A stretch of DNA of 64,000 bases, from contig NZ_JAEVFI010000011.1 in the NCBI RefSeq assembly GCF_019303495.1, positions 123,449 through 187,448 of the forward strand, read 5' to 3'. The position numbers were made by a program, and so were the translations under genes. Below, piece by piece: positions 73-23,012 of the stretch. This DNA comes from Streptomyces sp. JJ66 (lineage in GTDB: Bacteria; Actinomycetota; Actinomycetes; Streptomycetales; Streptomycetaceae). Positions within the stretch are counted from its first letter, which is position 1. The number at the start of each line of letters is the position of its first letter. A model generated the notes under the pieces. That model saw only the letters and a list, made by a program, of their open reading frames with translations. It was not told the DNA's origin and did not search any database.

Positions 73-969
73 CTAGCTTCCCTCGGCACCGAGCAGGGCG
101 GCGAACATGCCCTGGTCCAGGGCGGTTTCCACGGAGAGGCCACCCACCCCGCTCCACCCGGTGTCGTGCACTGCGGTGCCCACGACGTAGCCTTCCCGCG
201 CCTCCCCGGGCGCGTCCCCCCGTACGCGCGCGGGGCTGTCCCCTCGGGTGCGTCCCGGTGCCTCGAAGAGGGTGAAGCTCCAGTCCCCCTCGCCGACGGG
301 CGTCCCGTCGGGGCGCACCAGCCGTACTCCCTCCCCCGTCAGGTCGAACCCGAACTCGGTGAAGCGCAGCCGCAGTCCCTGTCCGCGCGCCTTGGTGTAG
401 GACTCCTTCAGCGTCCACAGCCGTACCAGCAGGTCGTTGCGGCCCTCCGGCCCCGCCTGGTCGAGCCGGAAACGCTCGAACGGGGTGCACGCCTGGCTCT
501 CCGAGCCGGTCCCCGCCATCCGGCGCGCGCGGTGTTCGGCGTCCACCCCGATCCGCCCGTGCCGGGTCACCCCGGCGACGAGGAAGTCCTCGGTGTGGCT
601 GAGGCTGATGTCGATCTGGTCGCAGCCGCGCACGTACGGTCGTCCGCCCGGCTGGTAGGAGAGGTCCACCAGCTCGGGGGCCGTCTCGATGGCGGCGGCC
701 ACCACATGGCGCAGCAGCAGCCGGGAGGCGGCGAACCGCTCCCGCATCCGGGGCAGGGTCATCCGCTCGTAGCGGGTGAAGTCCCGGCCCAGCCGCCGCC
801 GCAGGTCGCCGGGTTCCCCGCCGTCCGGTCCGCCGGGCCGCCAGGGGGCCAGCGCGCTGTGCGCCACCGCCGAACCGGAGGTGGCCAGGGCCTTGGCCAC
901 CCCGTCCCGCAGGCCCGTGGGGTCGTCCGCGGCGAGCAGGACCGGCGGCGGCGCCGAGGGGGCGGGCAT
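73..969 (-). CDS. Sfp-type 4'-phosphopantetheinyl transferase
   Basis: A 298-residue protein that would transfer phosphopantetheine from CoA to the carrier-domain serines of this cluster (the ACP-AT protein and the A-T protein). Seen: the Mg/CoA-binding signature GVDAEH and the downstream WTLKESYTKA motif that defines Sfp/AcpT-type enzymes. An upstream in-frame start would add 30 residues, but ATG at 969 overlaps the stop of the ACP-AT gene as TGATG, which points to coupled translation and the shorter protein. It is the last gene of the long minus-strand series; nothing recognisable follows in the 72 bases to the window edge. Confidence 0.9.
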   Translation of the reverse strand: MPAPSAPPPVLLAADDPTGLRDGVAKALATSGSAVAHSALAPWRPGGPDGGEPGDLRRRLGRDFTRYERMTLPRMRERFAASRLLLRHVVAAAIETAPELVDLSYQPGGRPYVRGCDQIDISLSHTEDFLVAGVTRHGRIGVDAEHRARRMAGTGSESQACTPFERFRLDQAGPEGRNDLLVRLWTLKESYTKARGQGLRLRFTEFGFDLTGEGVRLVRPDGTPVGEGDWSFTLFEAPGRTRGDSPARVRGDAPGEAREGYVVGTAVHDTGWSGVGGLSVETALDQGMFAALLGAEGS

Positions 970-2213
970 CAGGAACCGGCCAGGGCCGGGGGTGCGGCGG
1001 CCCGCAGGTCCGCCAGCAGCCGGGCAAGGTGCTCCTGGCCTGAGCGCGGGCCGGTGCACACCGCGCGCAGTACCGGCTCCTTGCGTCCGGCGATGCGCCG
1101 CAGGTAGGGCAGCAGCACGGGCCGGGGGCCGATCTCCACGACGTGACTGGGTGTCTGCTGGTCCAGCAGCGCACCGGCCGCCTCCGCGAACCGCACCGGG
1201 GCGGTGAGCTGCTCCGTCCAGTAGGACGCGTACAGCGGTTCACCGGTGAGGCGTCCGCGCAGGGTGGAGTAGAAGGGCAGGTGCGGGGCGCCGCCGGGCA
1301 CCCGGCGGGCGGCGGCGGTGAAGCGCGCGGTCACCGGCCGCATCAGCGGCGAGTGGAAGGCGTGCGCGGCGGGCAGCCGCACGCAGCGGTCGCCCTGGGC
1401 GGCCAGCCGCAGCATGACGCGCTCCAGCGCCCCGGAGTCGCCGGAGAGCACCGTGGAGCGGGGGGCGTTGAGCGCGGCGACGCCCACCAGCGGCTCCTTG
1501 GCGGTCAGCCGCTCCGCCTCCGCCACGGACAGGCCGGTGGCGAGCATGCCGCCGGGGTCCGTGCCCTGGCAGAAGGCGCCGCGCAGGGCGACGAGCCGGG
1601 CCGCGGCGGGGAGGCTGAGCGCTCCGCAGAGCACGGCGGCGGCGAACTCCCCGATGCCCTGCCCGATCACCGCCACCGGCGTCACCCCGGAGCACTCCAG
1701 GGCGCGGGCGAGCGCGTAGCCGACGGCGAAGAGCGCGGGCTGGGCGAGGGCGGTGTGGCGCAGCTGGGGAGCCGAGCTGAGGATCACGTCAACGACGGAG
1801 GTCCCGGTGAAGGGCCGCAGGGCGTCGGCGGCCTCGTCCAGGGCGGTGCGGTAGGGGGCGCTTTCGATGTAGAGGGCGGAGGTCATGCCCGGGTGCTCGG
1901 CCCCCAGGCCGGTGAAGGCAAAGGCCGGGCGCACCGCGTGGCCGATGCCGGGGCGCAGATCCCGGCTCACCATGTGCCGGGCGAGCTCCCGGGGGGTGGG
2001 GTGGGTCCCGATGTCGGTGGGGTCGATCAGCGGGCCGAACGCCTCCTCGATGTCGCCGTAGAGGTTGAGCACGGCCACCGAGTCGAGGTCGTGGCCCGGC
2101 ACCGGTTCGTCCTCGGACACCGGCCGGTCCAGGTAGTGCTGGAGCCGTTCGGTCAGCCAGGCGAGGTAGAGCTGCTCCATCGGCCGCACGGGGTCGGCAC
2201 TGTCATCGTGCAC
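969..2213 (-). CDS. ACP–acyltransferase fusion, AT lacks the catalytic serine
   Basis: A 414-residue didomain protein. Residues about 10–85 form an acyl carrier domain with the attachment site LDSVAVLNL (Ser45). Residues about 97–400 form a FabD/PKS-type acyltransferase starting FAFTGLGAEHPGM and keeping the AHAFHSPLM histidine motif. The nucleophile elbow, normally GHSxGE, reads GQGIGE, so the catalytic Ser is Gly186 (codon 1656–1658) and the His before it is Gln. Classical acyl-enzyme chemistry should be impossible; a structural or docking role, or a serine-independent activity, remains open. The GTG start at 2213 is chosen because it sits just before the ACP domain and about 9 bases after GAAGGGAA. 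It lies 74 bases after the acyl-CoA dehydrogenase and overlaps the PPTase by one base. Confidence 0.85.
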   Translation of the reverse strand: MHDDSADPVRPMEQLYLAWLTERLQHYLDRPVSEDEPVPGHDLDSVAVLNLYGDIEEAFGPLIDPTDIGTHPTPRELARHMVSRDLRPGIGHAVRPAFAFTGLGAEHPGMTSALYIESAPYRTALDEAADALRPFTGTSVVDVILSSAPQLRHTALAQPALFAVGYALARALECSGVTPVAVIGQGIGEFAAAVLCGALSLPAAARLVALRGAFCQGTDPGGMLATGLSVAEAERLTAKEPLVGVAALNAPRSTVLSGDSGALERVMLRLAAQGDRCVRLPAAHAFHSPLMRPVTARFTAAARRVPGGAPHLPFYSTLRGRLTGEPLYASYWTEQLTAPVRFAEAAGALLDQQTPSHVVEIGPRPVLLPYLRRIAGRKEPVLRAVCTGPRSGQEHLARLLADLRAAAPPALAGS

Positions 2214-2287: not shown

Positions 2288-4012
2288 TCAGGTGGCGAGC
2301 GGGCTTCCGTAGAGGTCCAGGGAGCGGGCGCCGTGCAGCCGGGCCAGCAGTTCGGCAAGCACCCGCTGGTCCTCGGCGGCGGGACGGTCGGGCAGGAACA
2401 CGCCGAGCCGTCCGGCCAGCCGGCGCAGCGCCGCGTCCAGCCAGGCCGGGTCCGCCAGGAAGGCCCCGCTCTCCGCCGCGAGCGGACCGGCCGTCTGCGC
2501 CTGCTGCCAGACGCCGATCACGGCGGCGGCGGCCAGCACGATGACGTAGCGGTCCACCAGGCCGAGCGCGTACGGGCTGCCCAGGGCCTCCCGGTCGTCG
2601 GGGGCGATCTCGCGGAACGCCCCGCGCAGTTCCTCCAGTTCCCGGGTGATGGCGTGGGCCAGCTCCCGGGTGGCGGCGCTCAGGGTGCCGCTCTCGCGTC
2701 CGGTGCAGAAGACGAGGGTGGCGGCCAGCGGGTCGCTGTCGGCGAGCAGCGCGAGCCCGCCGGCGTCCAGCGGCGGCAGGTCGCCGTCGGGCTGGAACAG
2801 CTCTCCCGGCGGTTCCGGGCTGGCGAACCAGGAGTGCCGGGCGAAGACGGGCAGCTGCGGCAGGATGCTGATCTGCCGGCCGACGCTTCCGGCATGCCCC
2901 ATGGAGGTGACGGGCAGGTCCCGCAGCTGCTTGCGGAACATGGCGTAGACAGGATCGTCGGTGAACTGGTCCTGGCCCAGGACGGACGCCAGCGCGTCCA
3001 TCGACTCCGCGAGCATCCGGGGGGCCAGGTGGGCGGCGGCGGCCGCGTAGGCACTGGCGTGCCGGGGCAGCAGGTGCACGGCCCGGGTCGCCACCAGGGC
3101 GAGGCAGTCGCTGATCAGCAGGTCGAGGAAGGCACCGGAGAGCACGTCGCGTACGTACCTGACGTCCAGCGCGGAGCGGCCGCCGGGCCGGGCGCGGACG
3201 GCGAACCGGGCGACGATGCGCAGGGCCGTGTCGGCGCCGGAGAGCACGATGGACGGGATGAGCCCCCTGATCAGCAGCGAGGAGCGCAGCGAGATCTCGT
3301 AGCCGTCGCCCTCCGCGCCGACCAGGGCCTCGGCGGGCAGCGGGCAGTCGCGGGCCTCCAGACCGCCGAACTCGGTGGAACTCAGGCCGCTGGTGGCCTG
3401 CCGTCCGAGGTCGCGGAGCCGCCCCGGGGGGAGGGAGGCCCGGTCGGTGAAGAACACCGACAGGCGGCGTCCGGCCGGGCTCTGGGTACCGGAGGTGCGT
3501 GCGAAGAGGACGAGGCCGTCGGCGCGGGCCGCGTTGGCGATACCCGTTTTGCGGCCCTGGAGCAGGAAGCCGCCGTCGCCCTGGCGGTGGGCGGAGAACT
3601 CGTCGCGGATGAAGTGGTTGCCGTGCGCCACCTCGTGCCGGGCGACGGCGACGCGGCGGCCGTTCAGCAGCAGCGCGGAGGCCGTCGCGCGCTGTGCCTC
3701 GGAGCCCGCCAGCCACAGCGGGACGGCGGCGAAGAAGCAGTTGAGGCCGTAGCCGAAGCCCAGGGAGGCGTCCCGGCGGAAGGCTGGGCGCAGCACCCGC
3801 CCCAGCTCGTCCATGCGGGTCAGGCGCCCGCCGAGGGAGGCGGGGACGAACTCGGCGTTGAAGGCGGCGGCGTCCAGGACGGCCTCGCCCGCGGCCAGGG
3901 CCTCCCCTCCGGCGTCGGCCCGCAGCAGGGCGGGCAGGCCCAGCGGGTTGCCGGGATCGGTGAGGGTGCCGAAGGCCCGCTCCAGCTCGTCAACGCGCTG
4001 CACGGTGCCCAT
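2288..4012 (-). CDS. acyl-CoA/acyl-ACP dehydrogenase family flavoprotein
   Basis: A 574-residue FAD-dependent dehydrogenase that would place an alpha,beta double bond in an acyl thioester. The N-terminal helical part, the middle strand domain (residues about 115–240) and the C-terminal helical domain follow the acyl-CoA dehydrogenase plan, but the protein is longer than the usual 380–400 residues because of a C-terminal extension of about 150 residues. I could not place the catalytic glutamate by eye. The start lies one base after the stop of the fatty-acyl-AMP ligase (TGACATG), so the two are tightly coupled. The likely substrate is an acyl chain loaded on the ACP of the next gene. Confidence 0.8.
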   Translation of the reverse strand: MGTVQRVDELERAFGTLTDPGNPLGLPALLRADAGGEALAAGEAVLDAAAFNAEFVPASLGGRLTRMDELGRVLRPAFRRDASLGFGYGLNCFFAAVPLWLAGSEAQRATASALLLNGRRVAVARHEVAHGNHFIRDEFSAHRQGDGGFLLQGRKTGIANAARADGLVLFARTSGTQSPAGRRLSVFFTDRASLPPGRLRDLGRQATSGLSSTEFGGLEARDCPLPAEALVGAEGDGYEISLRSSLLIRGLIPSIVLSGADTALRIVARFAVRARPGGRSALDVRYVRDVLSGAFLDLLISDCLALVATRAVHLLPRHASAYAAAAAHLAPRMLAESMDALASVLGQDQFTDDPVYAMFRKQLRDLPVTSMGHAGSVGRQISILPQLPVFARHSWFASPEPPGELFQPDGDLPPLDAGGLALLADSDPLAATLVFCTGRESGTLSAATRELAHAITRELEELRGAFREIAPDDREALGSPYALGLVDRYVIVLAAAAVIGVWQQAQTAGPLAAESGAFLADPAWLDAALRRLAGRLGVFLPDRPAAEDQRVLAELLARLHGARSLDLYGSPLAT

Positions 4013-4013
4013 G

Positions 4014-5735
4014 TCAGCCGTTCCCTGCCAAGACCAGTCCGGGGTCCACCCGTTGGTGGAGGGGTCTGAGCTCTCCGTTGAGGAAGAGGTCGCGCATCAC
4101 GGTGCGCCGTACCTTGCCGCTGGTGGTTCGGCGCACGGTGCCGGGGCGTACGAGGAGCACGCCAGCGGCGCGTACGTCGAACTCCTCGGCCAGGCACCGC
4201 TCCAGCTGGCCGGTGAGCCCGTCGAGGTCGAGCTGGCTGTGGCTGCGGGCCCGCAGCTCCTGCACCAGGACGATGCGTTCGGTCTCACCGGGCACGGCGA
4301 ACGCGGTGCCGGGCCCCAGTAGTGAGCTGACGCGCTGCACGGTCTGCTCCAGGTCCACCGGGTAGAGGTTGCGCCCGCCGACGATGACCATGTCGGTGAG
4401 CCGGCCGGTGACGAACAGCTCGCCCTCCCGCACGGTCCCCAGGTCTCCGGTGCGCAGGTGGCCGCCCTCGCCGCTGCTGGTGACGGCGCCGAAGCTCTCG
4501 GCGGTCTCCTTCGGACGGCGCCAGTACCCGGCGGCCACGCTGGCTCCGCGCAGCCAGATCTCGCCGATCCGCCCCTCGGGGAGGACGTCGCGGGTGCCGG
4601 GATCGACGATGCGCACCTGCCCGTCGGCCGCCGGGCCGCAGCCGACCACCGACCGCACCGGGGCGCCCGGGCCCGGTGCCGCCATCCGGTGGTCTTCCAG
4701 GGCCTTGGCGTCCGCCTCGACGGCCGTCCACGGCAGGCCGGGGGTGGCGGCGGAGGCCAGCAGGGTCGCCTCCGCCAGCCCGTAGGCGGGGGTGAGGCTG
4801 TGGGCGGGGAGGCCAGCGGGGGCGAAGCGCCGGGCGAACGCGCGCAGGGTGCCAGAGCGGATCATCTCGCCGCCGACGACCGCCGTCTGCCAGCGGGAGA
4901 GGTCAAGCCCGGCGAGTTCCTGGTCGGTGATCTTGCGGACGCACAGGTCGTAGGCGAAGTCGGGGGCGCCGCTGACGGTCAGCCCGTACGCGGAGACGGT
5001 CTCCAGCCAGCGGGCGGGCCGCCTGAGGAAGGCGCTTGGGGCGAGCAGGACGGACGTGCCGCCCAGCCAGAGGGGATGCACCAGGCCGCCGATCAGCCCC
5101 ATGTCGTGGTGGAAGGGCAGCCAGCCGCCGAGCCGCGCGCCGGGGCGGGTGCCCAGGCAGTGGCTGAGGGCGAGCTGGTTGGCGGTGAGGTTGGCGTGCG
5201 TGACCACCACGCCGCGCGGGTCGCGGGTGGAGCCGGAGGTGTACTGGAGGAAGGCGACTGTCTGGGGGCCGGTCTTGGGCCTTGCCCACCGGGTCCCGGC
5301 CACGTGGTCGGCTATCGCGCAGACGAGGTGGCCGTGGCCGGTGCGGGCCAGCAGCTGTGAGGTTTCGGCGGCGTCCTGGGCGTCGGTGAGGACGAAGCGG
5401 GCCGCGCTGTCCTTGACGATGCCGATGATCCGCTCGTCGTGCTGGGCGCGCCCGGTGGGCGGCGGGGCGGGCACGGCGACGGCCCCGGCGTAGAGGCAGG
5501 CGAGGAAGCTGACGGCGAAGTGGCGCCGCGAGGAGTGCTGGAGCAGGACCCGCTCTCCCTGCGCGCCGCGTTCCTGGAGCCAGCCCGCGAGGCGGCGGGC
5601 GGCGCCGTCCAGGGCGCCGTAGGTGAGGTGTTCGGGAGGCCGGTCCTCGTCCCCGAGGAAAATCAGCGCGTCCCGGTCGGGGGACCGCTCGCTCCGTTCC
5701 AGCACCACGTCGACGAGAGTGCGGTAGTCGCTCAT
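4014..5735 (-). CDS. fatty-acyl-AMP ligase (FAAL) / acyl-ACP synthetase
   Basis: A 573-residue ANL-superfamily adenylating enzyme. Seen: P-loop LQYTSGSTRDPRG near residue 170, the FAAL-typical PFHHDMGLIG, AYGLAEATL, and the hinge TGDLG with TGRLTDMVIVGGRNLYP. The size and these motifs match FAALs, which activate a free acid as acyl-AMP and pass it to a carrier protein rather than to CoA. In this operon the partner is probably the ACP of the ACP-AT fusion, with the dehydrogenase acting afterwards. The start is backed by a strong GGGAGGGGAG ribosome-binding site. The acyl substrate cannot be read from sequence. Confidence 0.88.
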   Translation of the reverse strand: MSDYRTLVDVVLERSERSPDRDALIFLGDEDRPPEHLTYGALDGAARRLAGWLQERGAQGERVLLQHSSRRHFAVSFLACLYAGAVAVPAPPPTGRAQHDERIIGIVKDSAARFVLTDAQDAAETSQLLARTGHGHLVCAIADHVAGTRWARPKTGPQTVAFLQYTSGSTRDPRGVVVTHANLTANQLALSHCLGTRPGARLGGWLPFHHDMGLIGGLVHPLWLGGTSVLLAPSAFLRRPARWLETVSAYGLTVSGAPDFAYDLCVRKITDQELAGLDLSRWQTAVVGGEMIRSGTLRAFARRFAPAGLPAHSLTPAYGLAEATLLASAATPGLPWTAVEADAKALEDHRMAAPGPGAPVRSVVGCGPAADGQVRIVDPGTRDVLPEGRIGEIWLRGASVAAGYWRRPKETAESFGAVTSSGEGGHLRTGDLGTVREGELFVTGRLTDMVIVGGRNLYPVDLEQTVQRVSSLLGPGTAFAVPGETERIVLVQELRARSHSQLDLDGLTGQLERCLAEEFDVRAAGVLLVRPGTVRRTTSGKVRRTVMRDLFLNGELRPLHQRVDPGLVLAGNG

Positions 5736-5980: not shown

Positions 5981-6622
5981 TCAGCGGGAGAGCGCGGGGC
6001 TGTACGCCACGTGACGCAGGCGCTCGGTGCGGACCTGTGCGCCCGCCCCCAGTTCCCGCACCCGCTTGCGGTACCCCTCCTCGCCCAGCGCCGCGTCGCA
6101 CACCTCGCTGTCCTGCCACCACAGCACGGCGAGGTAGCGGTTCGGCGTGAGGGTGGAACGCAGCACGTCTCCCCCGCCGAACCCCTCGTATGCCGCGCAG
6201 TGGCCGGCCAGTTCGTGGTAGCGCCACTCGAAGTCCCGCTGGTTTCCCGAGCGCAGCAGCCCGTGGAGGATCACCACGGCCTGCGCCCCCGTGCGTGCCT
6301 CGCGCTCCAGCAGGCGGCCGAGGCTGACGGCCTGGTCAGCCTCGGCGTCCACCAGAGGCGCGAGGCGGTGCACCTCGGAGAGATAGCCGTCGCTGTGCAC
6401 GGCCCGCAGGAACGCCTGGTGGGTCACCCAGTGCGAGAAGTGCACGAACACGTTCGGCGTATCGACGAGTTGCCCCGCCACCAGGAAGTCGAACCCGCGC
6501 CGCGCGCGCAGGAACTCGCAGTGGGCGCGGAACTCGCGCTCGAAGACGTCAATATCCCCGTTGACGGTGAAGCGGTTGACGACAGTGAGGGAACGGGCCA
6601 GGTCACGGCCTGTTTTTTCCAT
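5981..6622 (-). CDS. antibiotic biosynthesis monooxygenase, two ABM domains
   Basis: A 213-residue protein made of two dimeric alpha/beta-barrel (ABM) units, residues about 10–100 and 112–205, each with the short strand/helix pattern and Trp/His-rich core of this fold (VFVHFSHW; YLAVLWWQDSE). ABM enzymes oxygenate anthrone-like or enol substrates without cofactors, as in ActVA-Orf6 and TcmH; fused didomains are also known in aromatic polyketide clusters. Next to an aromatase/cyclase, this implies a polyketide ring that is oxidised. The ribosome-binding site before ATG at 6622 is weak. Confidence 0.78.
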   Translation of the reverse strand: MEKTGRDLARSLTVVNRFTVNGDIDVFEREFRAHCEFLRARRGFDFLVAGQLVDTPNVFVHFSHWVTHQAFLRAVHSDGYLSEVHRLAPLVDAEADQAVSLGRLLEREARTGAQAVVILHGLLRSGNQRDFEWRYHELAGHCAAYEGFGGGDVLRSTLTPNRYLAVLWWQDSEVCDAALGEEGYRKRVRELGAGAQVRTERLRHVAYSPALSR

Positions 6623-6679: not shown

Positions 6680-7702
6680 TCAGGAGGGGCGCGATTCCGC
6701 GTACTCCTTGGCGTACCGAAGGGTGGCGGAGCTGTTCGCGCCCAAAGACTTCCGCACGAGGGCCCGGGCTTCGGCGAGGGTCGCCGCCGGTCCCAGCGCC
6801 TGCCGGACGCCTTCGGGGTCAAGCGTGACGGTGTGCCACGAGGTCACGGCCAGCCTAGCGGAGTCGGCGGAATCCTGTTCGATCACCCAGCGGCCCGTGT
6901 GCCCGGCGAGCGCCGCCGGAACCCGCAACTGCTTGTACACGATGGTCAGCTCCTCCGGTCGGCAGATCCGGACCGACGTGGTGTTGTGCAGGGAGCCGTC
7001 GGCGCTGCTGCGGGTGTCCATGTCCAGGTGCTGGACGCCGGGCTCGTCCTCGGTGAGCGCGAGGCGGGCGACGTGCGGCAGCCGCTCGGGCCACAGGTCA
7101 GCGCGGTCCAAAAAGGAGAAGACGTCCTCGGCCGCGCCGTGCACGTGCTCACAGTCGCGGAAGGTGAAGACCAGCTCGGCCCGCTGCTCGCCCTGCTCGG
7201 CCACGCCTTTCAGCGCGGCCAGCTCGGCGCGGCTGTTGCGTTCCACCGCCTCGCCGATGAGGGTGACGGCGGCGGGGTCGTCGTCCACGGCCCGGAAGTC
7301 GTGCAGCAGGGTGACGCGGCTGCCGCCGTCGGCGTGCGCCTCGACCAGCCACTCCCCGCCCATCGCGGCGACGGGGGCGGCGGGAACGGTCTGCCGGAAG
7401 ACGATGCGCCCGGCGGCCGGGTCCAGCTCGCGGCGTGAGGTCCAGGTGCGCACCTGGCCGCCAGCGAACGCCCACAGCCGGAGCAGCTGGTCCCGGCCGT
7501 CGTCCTGAAGCATCTCGGAGTGGACGGTGGGGCCGAAGACGTGCGGCCAGTTCGCGACGTCGGCGAGCAGACCGAAGACGGTGCGCGGGGGTGCCCACAC
7601 GGTGACGGTGTGACGGGTGGTGTGCGGGCCAGGAGTGCGGGACGCGTCGTGCGTGCGGCTCTCGGTCGTGGCGGGGGTGGTGGTAGCGGCGCTCGGCACC
7701 AC
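6680..7702 (-). CDS. didomain SRPBCC aromatase/cyclase
   Basis: A 340-residue protein with two START/Bet v1-like domains (residues about 30–170 and 185–330). It resembles the bifunctional aromatase/cyclases of type II polyketide clusters; the opening VWAPPRTVFGLLADVANWP is typical of domain 1. Family members fold a poly-beta-keto chain and dehydrate the first ring. No ketosynthase alpha/beta pair is visible nearby, so the substrate is unclear. The start is a GTG (two GTGs in a row) after GAGGAG. The 86-base gap to the preceding KASIII gene holds a G-rich near-duplicate near 7745–7780. Confidence 0.8.
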   Translation of the reverse strand: MVPSAATTTPATTESRTHDASRTPGPHTTRHTVTVWAPPRTVFGLLADVANWPHVFGPTVHSEMLQDDGRDQLLRLWAFAGGQVRTWTSRRELDPAAGRIVFRQTVPAAPVAAMGGEWLVEAHADGGSRVTLLHDFRAVDDDPAAVTLIGEAVERNSRAELAALKGVAEQGEQRAELVFTFRDCEHVHGAAEDVFSFLDRADLWPERLPHVARLALTEDEPGVQHLDMDTRSSADGSLHNTTSVRICRPEELTIVYKQLRVPAALAGHTGRWVIEQDSADSARLAVTSWHTVTLDPEGVRQALGPAATLAEARALVRKSLGANSSATLRYAKEYAESRPS

Positions 7703-8877: not shown

Positions 8878-10620
<1,743 letters not shown>

Positions 10621-19804: not shown

Positions 19805-20842
19805 TCACCAGGCCGGGAGGTCGAGGAACTCCAGGACGGCCACCGTCCAGACGTATCCGGCGCCGACGCCCATCACGGCCACCCGGTCACCGGGCTGGGG
19901 ACGGCCCGCCTCCACCAGCTGGTTGAGCCCGGCCAGTTCGTCGGCGGCTCCCATCTGGCCGCGCGTCAGCCCCCAGTCGTAGACGGTCGTGGCCCGGTCC
20001 ATGCCGAGCAGGCCGTAGACGGAGAAGCCCGCGATGGTTTCGGGGAGGTTCTGGTGCACGAAGTGGGCGAGCCCGGCCTTGTCGGTGCCGGACTCGGCCA
20101 GCGCCCGGTCCAGCACGGTGACCGCGTTGCGGGTGATCTTCTCGATCACCTCGTCGTAGCCGTCCTCGTCGGCGGCGAGGAACTCCCGCTTGCGCGCACC
20201 GAGATCGATGGGTTTGCCGTCGGGGAAGGGCGTGTCGGCCCAGCCGCCCGTGCCGCGCTCCATCGGCTCCAGCGTCGGGTCGGCGACGGAGACGGTGGCC
20301 AGCAGCCGGGCGAAGCCGCCCTGGCGGGAGAGCACGAGTGCGGCCGCGCCGTCGCCGTAGACCACCTGATCCCCCGCGGACCAGCGGTCAACGTACGGCA
20401 GCCGGAAGGTGTCACCCGCCGTGACCAGCGCGGCGGACGCCCCGGGCCGGGCGCTCAGGTGGGAGGCGGCCAGTTCCAGCGCCGCCAGGCCGCCGTTGCA
20501 GCCCTGCCGGACTTCGACGGCGATGCCGGTGCCGCCGACGCTCTCGTTCTGTACGAAGCTGGCCGGAGTCCAGAAGTCGAGCCCCTGGTGGCCGACGTAG
20601 GCGTGCAGCACCAGATCGACGTCCTCGCCGGTGACGCCCGCGCGCTCGGCGGCCTGGCGCGCGGCTACGGCGGCCAGCACCGGACCCGGCTGGCCCGGGC
20701 CCGCCGTGCGGACCTCGCGGTAACCGGCCACCGCACGCGCGGCCTCGGTGTAGCGGCCGGCCGCGATGGCGTCGGCGGGAGTCTCCACGGTGTCCGGGTA
20801 GCACGCCCCGAGTCCGGCGACGTACAGGTTGTTCCAGCGCAT
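19805..20842 (-). CDS. KASIII-like enzyme with intact cysteine
   Basis: A 345-residue FabH-fold protein. The nucleophile is Cys115 in VRQGCNGGLAALELA, and the base is His in FVHQNLPET. The third position reads GQMGAAD, with Asp rather than the GN(T/S) asparagine of FabH, as in CerJ-type KASIII acyltransferases. It is the last gene of the cyclodeaminase/A-T operon, so a natural job is to extend or acylate the aminoacyl-thioester on the A-T protein. ATG at 20842 follows GGAAAGGA. It resembles the serine variant at 7789, suggesting duplication followed by divergence. Confidence 0.88.
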   Translation of the reverse strand: MRWNNLYVAGLGACYPDTVETPADAIAAGRYTEAARAVAGYREVRTAGPGQPGPVLAAVAARQAAERAGVTGEDVDLVLHAYVGHQGLDFWTPASFVQNESVGGTGIAVEVRQGCNGGLAALELAASHLSARPGASAALVTAGDTFRLPYVDRWSAGDQVVYGDGAAALVLSRQGGFARLLATVSVADPTLEPMERGTGGWADTPFPDGKPIDLGARKREFLAADEDGYDEVIEKITRNAVTVLDRALAESGTDKAGLAHFVHQNLPETIAGFSVYGLLGMDRATTVYDWGLTRGQMGAADELAGLNQLVEAGRPQPGDRVAVMGVGAGYVWTVAVLEFLDLPAW

Positions 20843-20906
20843 GACGCGTCCTTTCCGTGCGATGTACGGGGTCAGGGGGCCGGTGGCCAGTGGCCGGTGG
20901 CCGCGC

Positions 20907-23012
20907 TCAGCCGACCGGCACCGGCGGCGCGGACGGCGACGGCTCCGGCGGCGCGGACGGCGGCAGGGTGGCGATGTGACCGGCCAGGGCCGCGATCCGC
21001 GGGGTCCGCAGGACCTGCCCCACCCGGACCCTGACCCCCAGCTCGGCCCGGATGCGCGCCACCAGGGCGGCGGCCAGCAGCGAATGCCCGCCGAGCGCGA
21101 GAAAACTCTCCTCCGCCCCGGCCACCGCGACGCCCAGCACCTCCGCATACATCCGGCACAGCGCATCCTCTACCGGCGTGCGCGGCGCTCGCGGCAGGGG
21201 CGCTTCGCTCGCGGCGGCGGGCAGCGTCCCGGGGTCCGGCAGGGCCGCCCGGTCCACCTTGCCGTTGGGGGTGAGCGGGAACACCGGCAGCGGTACCACC
21301 ACGGCCGGGACCAGGTGCTCGGGCAGCGACCGCGCCAGGTGCGCGCGCAGTTCACCCGGGGTGGCCTCGCCTTCCAGCACCGCGTAGGCGACCAGGCGCG
21401 GGCCCCCGGCGTCCGCGCGCCGGACCACCACGGCCGCCCGGGCGACGGCCGGGTGCCGCAGCAGTGCCGCCTCCGGCTCCCCCGGCTCGACCCTGAAGCC
21501 CCGGATCTTGACCTGGTCGTCGGCCCGGCCGGTGAACTCCAGCCCGCCGCCGGGCAGCCGCCGCACCACGTCGCCGGTGCGGTACATCCGGGTGCCCGGC
21601 GGGCCGTAGGGGTCGGCGACGAAGCGAGCGGCCGTGAGCTCGGGCCGGTTCCAGTAGCCGTCGGCCACCTGGGCCCCGGCGACGTACAGCTCGCCGCTCT
21701 CCCCCGCGCCCACCGGCTCCAGCCGCCCGTCCAGCACCCGCAGCCCCACGTGGTCCAGCGGACGCCCGAGCGGGACCACCGAGGGCCACTCCCCGGGATC
21801 GGCGGGCAGGACGTGTGCCGTGGCAGCGTGCGTCTCGGCCGGACCGTAGACGTTGACCAGGCGGAACGGGCAGTCGCGGCGGAAGGCGCGGATCGCGCCG
21901 TCGGTGCGCAGCGCCTCGCCGCCCTGGAGGACGCGGCGCAGGGCGGGCAGCGCCGAGCCGCGCTCGGCCGCGAGGGTGAAGACGGTCTCGATGACGGCGG
22001 TCGGCGCGTACAGCTCGTGGATGCGGCGCTCGTCCAGCCACTCGGTGAACGCGGTGAGGTCGCGGCGCAGGGCGTCGGCGGGGATCACCAGCGTCCGGCC
22101 GGTGACGAGGGTGGCCAGGATCTCCTGCACGCAGAAGTCGAACCCGAGCGCGGTGAACTGGGCGGTGCGTTCGCCGGGCTGGCCGGGCAGGGTGGACGCG
22201 TGCCAGCGCAGCAGGTTGGCCAGGCCGCGTCCCGGCATCACCACGCCCTTGGGCCGCCCCGTCGAGCCGGAGGTGTAGACGAGGTAGGCGGGGTGGGCCG
22301 GGGTCAGCGCGGCGGTGCGCGCGCTGTCGCCGGGTACCGTGGCGGGCTGCGCGGCGACGGTCCGGCCCACGCCGGGGGCGGTCAGGTTGACGGTGCGCCC
22401 CGGGTCCGAGGCGGCCGGGGGCAGGACGCCGCCCGCGGTGAGGACCAGCGCCGGGTCCGCGTCGGCCAGCAGGTAGCCGATCCGCTCCGGCGGGTACTCC
22501 GGGTCCACCGGGAGGAAGGCGGCACCGGCCTTGAGCACGGCGAGCAGGGCGACGACCAGCTCCGCCGAGCGCGGCATGACCAGGGCCGTCACCCGGCCGG
22601 GACCGGCTCCGCGCCGGATCAGGTGGTGCGCCAGCCGGTTGGCCCGCGCGTCGAGTTCGGCGAAGTCCAGGGCGGTGTCCTCGAACTCGACCGCCGGGGC
22701 GTGCGGGGAGCGCCGCACCCGGTCCTCGAACAGGGTCACCGGCAGGCCGGGACCGTCCGGGGCGGCGGCGCTTCCCCCGACCGCGACGGGGGCGACGGCG
22801 GTGTCCGGGGCGACGGCGGTGTCCGGGGCGACGGGGGCGGCCGGGGCCTGGGCGGTGTGCGCGGTGCAGGCGGCCAGGGGGGCCGGGCCGAAGACGGGAA
22901 CCCACCCGGCCGGTACCGCGACGGTGACAGGCCACAGCGAGTGCCGTCCGGCCGCGTCGGCGAGCACCAGGTAGCTGCCGTCCGCGTCCTCGAACGGCGC
23001 CGGGACGCTCAC
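20907..23012 (-). CDS. MbtH–adenylation–thiolation fusion (NRPS loading protein)
   Basis: A 701-residue protein. Residues about 1–55 are an MbtH-like domain ([28 protein letters not shown]). A linker with a PDTAVA repeat follows, then an adenylation domain (about 95–610: [49 protein letters not shown] lysine) and a thiolation domain (about 625–690, GGHSLL serine). There is no condensation or thioesterase domain. A hand-aligned specificity code is D-F-Q-L-L-G-V-A-A, closest in my memory to cyclic imino acid codes (proline/pipecolate). GTG at 23012 overlaps the cyclodeaminase stop (GTGA) and gives exactly the MbtH N-terminus. MbtH partners are usually separate proteins. Confidence 0.9.
22791..22844. 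repeat. 18-bp in-frame tandem repeat in the MbtH–A linker
   Basis: Two exact and one degenerate copies of GGCGACGGCGGTGTCCGG encode a repeated PDTAVA in the linker between the MbtH and adenylation domains. Confidence 0.88.

Follow-up and report, generated by a model that had tools for sequence, protein, structure and literature searches.

Why would an acyltransferase (AT) domain that has lost its catalytic nucleophile be retained, and retained in fusion with an ACP? The question is raised by a gene of Streptomyces sp. JJ66, lying in the 64,000-nucleotide stretch of DNA analysed here (the window), whose ACP-AT product carries Gly in place of the nucleophilic Ser of the AT elbow. Pfam-based annotation names this protein an acyltransferase although the normal mechanism is unusable. 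Our proposal, to which we assign a probability of roughly 0.55, is that the protein would serve as a starter-unit carrier in a type II PKS system and that its disarmed AT would be kept for docking or shielding; it draws on sequence comparison, predicted structure and gene neighbourhood. Taken by itself, the carrier role is likely, and the AT domain probably has a docking or protective role for the starter unit.

The ACP-AT protein and its gene cluster

The sequence-only reading that first drew attention to the gene was silent on its strand; across 969-2213 the plus strand is interrupted by a stop, and the ACP-AT frame is open on the minus strand (Table 1). Pfam places PP-binding at residues 19-80 and Acyl_transf_1 at residues 98-387 (167.7 bits against a cut-off of 32.7), and no KS is present in the ORF, the AT being preceded directly by the ACP. 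PKS ATs are the best solved-structure matches of the protein by sequence as well as the top Foldseek matches of its AT domain, and the AlphaFold model (mean pLDDT 86.2) shows a confident AT fold, the ACP and AT being joined by a linker of low confidence at 88-92. By sequence profile and fold the protein thus belongs to the PKS/FAS acyltransferase fold family PF00698, but the nucleophilic Ser of GHSxG that marks a catalytic malonyl/acyl transferase is absent. The fusion and the Gly-for-Ser replacement described in the earlier reading are therefore confirmed by the Pfam domains and by GGC at codon 186. The His-to-Gln change that it reported is real too, but was misplaced: the lost His is at position 185 (Gln185), directly before Gly186, and not two residues before it. 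Its description of the rest of the AT as intact holds for AHAFHSPLM, with catalytic His287 kept, but not for the oxyanion-motif Gln of GQG, which is also lost in the window protein (FTGLGA, Leu103). A two-residue deletion in the alignment and a long branch in the AT tree are further marks of this protein. Since neither acyl transfer nor hydrolysis is detectable with a Ser-to-Ala AT (PMC4186864), we strongly infer that acyl transfer has been lost, and the ACP-AT is almost certainly not an acyltransferase by the normal mechanism.

Table 1. Coordinates of the ACP-AT gene, its domains and the neighbouring genes in the window
Feature	Position	Strand	Remarks
ACP-AT didomain protein, 414 aa	969..2213	minus	GTG start 2213, stop 971-969
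ACP domain, about residues 13-85	1959..2177	minus	phosphopantetheine Ser45 in LDSVAV
Acyltransferase-fold domain, about residues 95-400	1014..1931	minus	Pfam, AlphaFold, Foldseek
Codon 186, GGC = Gly, replacing the nucleophilic Ser	1656..1658	minus	elbow GQGIGE; plus-strand gcc
4'-Phosphopantetheinyl transferase (PPTase)	73..969	minus	start overlaps ACP-AT stop
Acyl-CoA-dehydrogenase-like protein	2288..4012	minus	weak Pfam match, below cut-off
Fatty acyl-AMP ligase (FAAL)	4014..5735	minus	beyond dehydrogenase-like gene
Antibiotic biosynthesis monooxygenase (ABM)-type protein	5981..6622	minus	
Polyketide cyclase/aromatase	6680..7702	minus	
KSIII, DpsC-like priming ketosynthase, Ser-His-Asp residues	7789..8835	minus	SNGG, GHLGAGD
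Citramalate synthase	8878..10620	minus	TIGR00977 above cut-off

The gene is part of a type II PKS cluster that extends left beyond the window. The upstream stretch (L004) encodes KS-alpha, KS-beta, an ACP and a separate intact AT (GHSAGE), together with regulators of the SARP and two-component types and a YcaO/TOMM cyclodehydratase accompanied by a candidate precursor, and the same intact AT stands beside KS-alpha/KS-beta/ACP in locus L090. The ACP-AT gene shares its cluster with a priming KSIII and with the genes of a minimal type II PKS (KS-alpha, KS-beta, ACP, AT2: L004, L090). The type II setting and the separate AT had escaped the earlier reading, as had the KS-deletion origin discussed below, and of the two genes that it placed next to the ACP-AT gene only the dehydrogenase-like one adjoins it, with the FAAL gene lying beyond. 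The dehydrogenase-like gene has this position in other clusters of window-type layout too, and since its product falls below the Pfam cut-off its own activity may be unusual. In the KSIII, Ser (SNGG) replaces Cys in 17/17 clusters (the window and 16 others), and GHLGAGD of the window protein fits the DpsC S118, H297, D302 spacing, giving the Ser-His-Asp triad of DpsC-like KSIIIs rather than Cys-His-Asn. The presence of a citramalate synthase in a type II PKS cluster hints at a starter derived from 2-oxobutyrate or isoleucine; SDTASSDTA-like repeats occur in the C-terminal tail of the enzyme. Most clusters of window layout have the order citramalate synthase, KSIII, cyclase, ABM, FAAL, dehydrogenase, ACP-AT, PPTase. 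In a second layout (L052-L060) FAAL adjoins ACP-AT, and neither KSIII nor citramalate synthase is found in the stretch read.

Three other features of the region deserve mention. The YcaO/TOMM cyclodehydratase is a fusion (L004:13418-16062, about 2-5 kb left of the window; TIGR03604 and TIGR03882 above cut-offs), accompanied inside the type II PKS cluster by a 108-aa candidate precursor with a weak TIGR04351 match. Since most related clusters have a YcaO gene, they look like type II PKS/TOMM hybrids; we found no paper on a type II PKS/YcaO hybrid of such layout in the openly accessible literature, which is not proof of absence. At 19805-23012 of the window, a second KSIII-like protein (40% identical, CNGG) adjoins an AMP-forming ligase that has a carrier domain; the two may form a separate module for acyl or aminoacyl attachment. 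Finally, a P450 gene (12667-13998) has the in-frame repeat DPDRFDPDRFDPDRFDPDR shortly ahead of the haem-binding region.

A Streptomyces family probably derived from an ACP/KS-AT pair

A protein search of 393 Streptomyces genomes (E <= 1e-60) recovered 26 discrete ACP-ATs, the window protein included, and a collection scan added three more that are 59-60% identical and have the elbow GHGIGE, from S. ficellus AS11, S. lavendofoliae JCM 4391 and S. noursei B-3066, bringing the total to at least 29. One pattern of the collection scan itself contained the Gly motif; for this reason the 393-genome search was made without a Gly pattern and is free of such bias. The sequence-only reading had suggested a search for orthologues with the same Gly, and had named orthologues all carrying Ser as the outcome that would speak against it. 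Gly186 is present in 29/29 ACP-ATs, with GHGxGE as the common elbow, and Ser in none, whereas all 14 sister KS-ATs compared have Ser; this pattern is not due to chance. Ser45 of the ACP domain is likewise invariant in the alignment. Among strong matches in 395 genomes of the class (137 genera), no discrete ACP-AT was found outside Streptomyces, the matches there being AT regions of larger proteins. A plasmid match (H9) considered as the ACP and AT of an ordinary type I module was rejected, as its alignment with the window protein is confined to the AT part and it carries GHSVGE. In the openly accessible literature we found no paper describing the ACP-AT fusion, which again is not proof of absence.

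The 29 ACP-ATs form one clade (support 100/98 in a maximum-likelihood tree of 54 AT domains), whose sister is the Ser-bearing ATs of KS-AT proteins of about 1000 aa. The gene order in the sister clusters is FAAL, ACAD, ACAD, small ACP, KS-AT(-ACP), KSIII, HAD-like, PPTase, and a plasmid cluster that others have annotated resembles them in layout and includes a HAD-IIIC (FkbH-type) protein and one additional ACP. Because an FkbH-like protein, an ACP and a FabH-like protein make up the conserved tetronate set (PMC4979870), we term the sister clusters acyltetronate-like, a name based on gene content. A comparison with the L008 ACP as query gave 46-59% identity between the ACP half of ACP-AT and the separate small ACP upstream of KS-AT, and no match to the minimal-PKS ACP at E 1e-3. 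The ACP-AT therefore looks like a fused ACP/KS-AT pair without its KS, and its descent from such a pair is very probable. In what would be the simplest history, a type II PKS cluster acquired an ancestral cassette of FAAL, acyl-CoA dehydrogenase, ACP and KS-AT, like those that acyltetronate-like type I clusters still carry beside KSIII and HAD/FkbH-like genes; KS and KS-AT linker were lost by deletion, ACP was fused to AT, and a single Ser-to-Gly change followed. That Ser was lost once, in the common ancestor and before the family diversified, is well supported. The cassette may have passed from type I to type II systems, or both may have drawn on a common source; the domain tree fits either.

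Only two of the 331 alignment columns are conserved differently between the two clades, namely 186 (Gly/Ser) and 251 (Ala/Pro). Many of the positions 326-397 are conserved only in ACP-ATs, which we do not take as proof of a new interface since the sequences of the sister set diverge more in this region and are in part truncated. An independent Ser-to-Gly change was seen in a KS-AT-ACP protein of acyltetronate-like type that has retained its KS (GYGVGE, L088:9767-10666 in G088, also L074).

Retention of the domain and competing explanations

Besides Gly186, Arg211 and Asn249 are invariant in all 29 ACP-ATs, and His185 and Gln103 are kept in 28/29 and 27/29, respectively. Arg211 is the presumed binder of the malonyl carboxylate. 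Such conservation could be the mark of a ligand-binding pseudoenzyme, the Ser-less pocket of which would bind malonyl-CoA, malonyl-ACP or the acyl-phosphopantetheine arm non-covalently, acting as a sensor or as a tunnel hiding the acyl chain, with Gly leaving room for the thioester. Consistent with this, the elbow and Arg motifs, when set against the remainder of the domain, show a constraint close to that of active ATs (ratios 0.23 vs 0.20 and 0.72 vs 0.57). However, the Gly clade shows relaxation at the His motif, whose pairwise divergence is 0.107 vs 0.000 in the Ser clade: HAFHSPLM is altered in 11/29 proteins, four of them at the catalytic His (Asn in L014, L015 and L020; Gln in L009), leaving His287 in 25/29, the window protein among these. 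Moreover, the elbow Gly and His185 may be structural, a His-Asn hydrogen bond having been noted (PMC4186864), and the window protein itself lacks Gln103 and His185, Gln185 being peculiar to its lineage. We regard a pseudoenzyme of this kind as unlikely. Still, Arg211 and Asn249 are not obviously needed by a pure scaffold, which is a point against the docking role that we favour.

It could also be that the AT is an evolutionary relic, a folded remnant on a useful ACP that helps the fusion to stay soluble or to fold and has no function of its own. An origin through KS deletion and the loss of more catalytic residues in 5/29 ACP-ATs would fit, as would the fact that the whole gene is missing from three related clusters. 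The latter are type II clusters with KSIII and FAAL, found among 15 genomes chosen because their KSIII is a close match (E <= 1e-158): FAAL, dehydrogenase and PPTase are all present in L094, and L095 and L096 have FAAL but neither dehydrogenase nor ACP-AT. None of the three FAALs has a fused ACP. The ACP-AT is therefore not universally required, and some lineages can replace it, perhaps with a different ACP. Against a relic, the AT domain has a dN/dS well below 1 (0.007-0.20 by NG86 in the closest ACP-AT pairs, to which we kept because pairwise dS beyond them is compressed under strong GC3 bias). Its mean identity among the 16 other clusters of window-type layout (0.746) is at least that of ACP (0.718), PPTase (0.710) and FAAL (0.686), with the dehydrogenase at 0.754; the AT thus evolves as slowly as neighbouring enzymes. 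Nor was an ACP-AT with a truncated or frameshifted AT found, although the E-value limit would miss low-scoring fragments. The impression of the earlier reading that the domain is clearly maintained was thus correct, and we consider a relic improbable.

Catalysis of another sort is still harder to accept. In type II initiation modules an AT homologue can have the role of an editing thioesterase, as with ZhuC and EncL (PMC12664062), and His287, water and Gly186 might together form a nucleophile-free thioesterase, in line with the His being kept in most of the family. The Asn or Gln at this position in four orthologues and the lack of detectable hydrolysis by a Ser-to-Ala AT (PMC4186864) make such an editing hydrolase, or another catalyst, very improbable, and the same two observations leave the new non-covalent chemistry imagined in the sequence-only reading unsupported.

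A sequencing error or a decaying pseudogene in the window genome, to which Leu103, Gln185, the two-residue deletion and the long branch might point, is hardly credible given that the frame is open, that all 28 other orthologues have Gly and that the extra divergence is common to all cluster genes (1.26-1.59-fold; AT 1.59, citramalate synthase 1.57, cyclase 1.56). Since every gene of the window cluster is more diverged, the AT is not singled out for decay, and we also rejected a general relaxation of the AT in this lineage, the domain being no more diverged than the other cluster genes. That a nucleophile-less AT is kept as a conserved family trait, in at least 29 relatives, is thus well supported. 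The scaffold or docking role suggested for it by the earlier reading is compatible with all data, and would be our best guess.

A proposed role in priming and comparison with known systems

As a starter-unit carrier for the initiation of an aromatic (type II) polyketide, the ACP of ACP-AT would be armed by the PPTase and then loaded with a carboxylic acid that the FAAL has adenylated; the acyl-ACP would next be acted on by the dehydrogenase-like enzyme, and the acyl group would be handed to the minimal PKS by the Ser-His-Asp KSIII. KSIIIs of the latter type can self-acylate and transfer acyl groups to ACP (PMC12664062). Malonyl groups for the minimal PKS could come from the separate intact AT beside its ACP. 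An active fused malonyl-AT, on the other hand, would compete with FAAL for the holo-ACP and could malonylate its own ACP and so prevent loading by FAAL; removal of the Ser may have ended this competition. The folded AT would then be retained without catalytic function, to dock, orient or shield the acyl-ACP. One cluster (L051) fits a FAAL-fed carrier less well: in the 20 kb read from it, dehydrogenase and ACP-AT are present but neither FAAL nor KSIII nor citramalate synthase was detected. More speculatively, the emptied pocket might be an in-cis chaperone that holds the acyl-phosphopantetheine arm, keeps it from hydrolysis and malonyl exchange and gives it up to the Ser-type KSIII alone. Doubtful as this idea is, it would, if true, assign an AT domain a part in polyketide priming that involves no catalysis.

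Of known systems, the KS-AT of the acyltetronate-like cassette is similar in its AT (about 50-56% identity), its homologous ACP, its FAAL and dehydrogenase neighbours and a PPTase nearby; the ACP-AT differs from it in lacking KS and linker, in the fused ACP, in the Ser-to-Gly change and in its type II PKS setting. The S641A mutant of the yersiniabactin AT shares the AT fold and the removal of the nucleophile, and shows neither acyl transfer nor hydrolysis (PMC4186864), but it is a laboratory mutant, whereas the Gly of ACP-AT is natural and ancient. DpsD, ZhuC, EncL and GilQ resemble ACP-AT, by description only, in being AT-fold proteins encoded with a priming KSIII in type II PKS systems. Unlike these, the ACP-AT has no catalytic Ser, is fused to its own ACP instead of stand-alone and would be FAAL-fed, and the nearest relatives of its AT domain among the 54 domains of the tree are type I KS-ATs. 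DpsD is a putative AT whose function has been called unclear; it has been reported to be dispensable in heterologous hosts, and yeast two-hybrid data have led to its inclusion in complex models; the AT-like proteins found in type II PKS initiation modules have in general been described as poorly understood (PMC12664062). With the nucleophile gone, the domain kept in at least 29 proteins, the carrier in cis and an active sister clade at hand, a non-transfer role of an AT in priming becomes directly testable in the ACP-AT family. The window KSIII, for its part, is like DpsC in having Ser-His-Asp at the active-site positions, but is encoded beside a predicted FAAL-loaded ACP rather than a DpsD-type AT.
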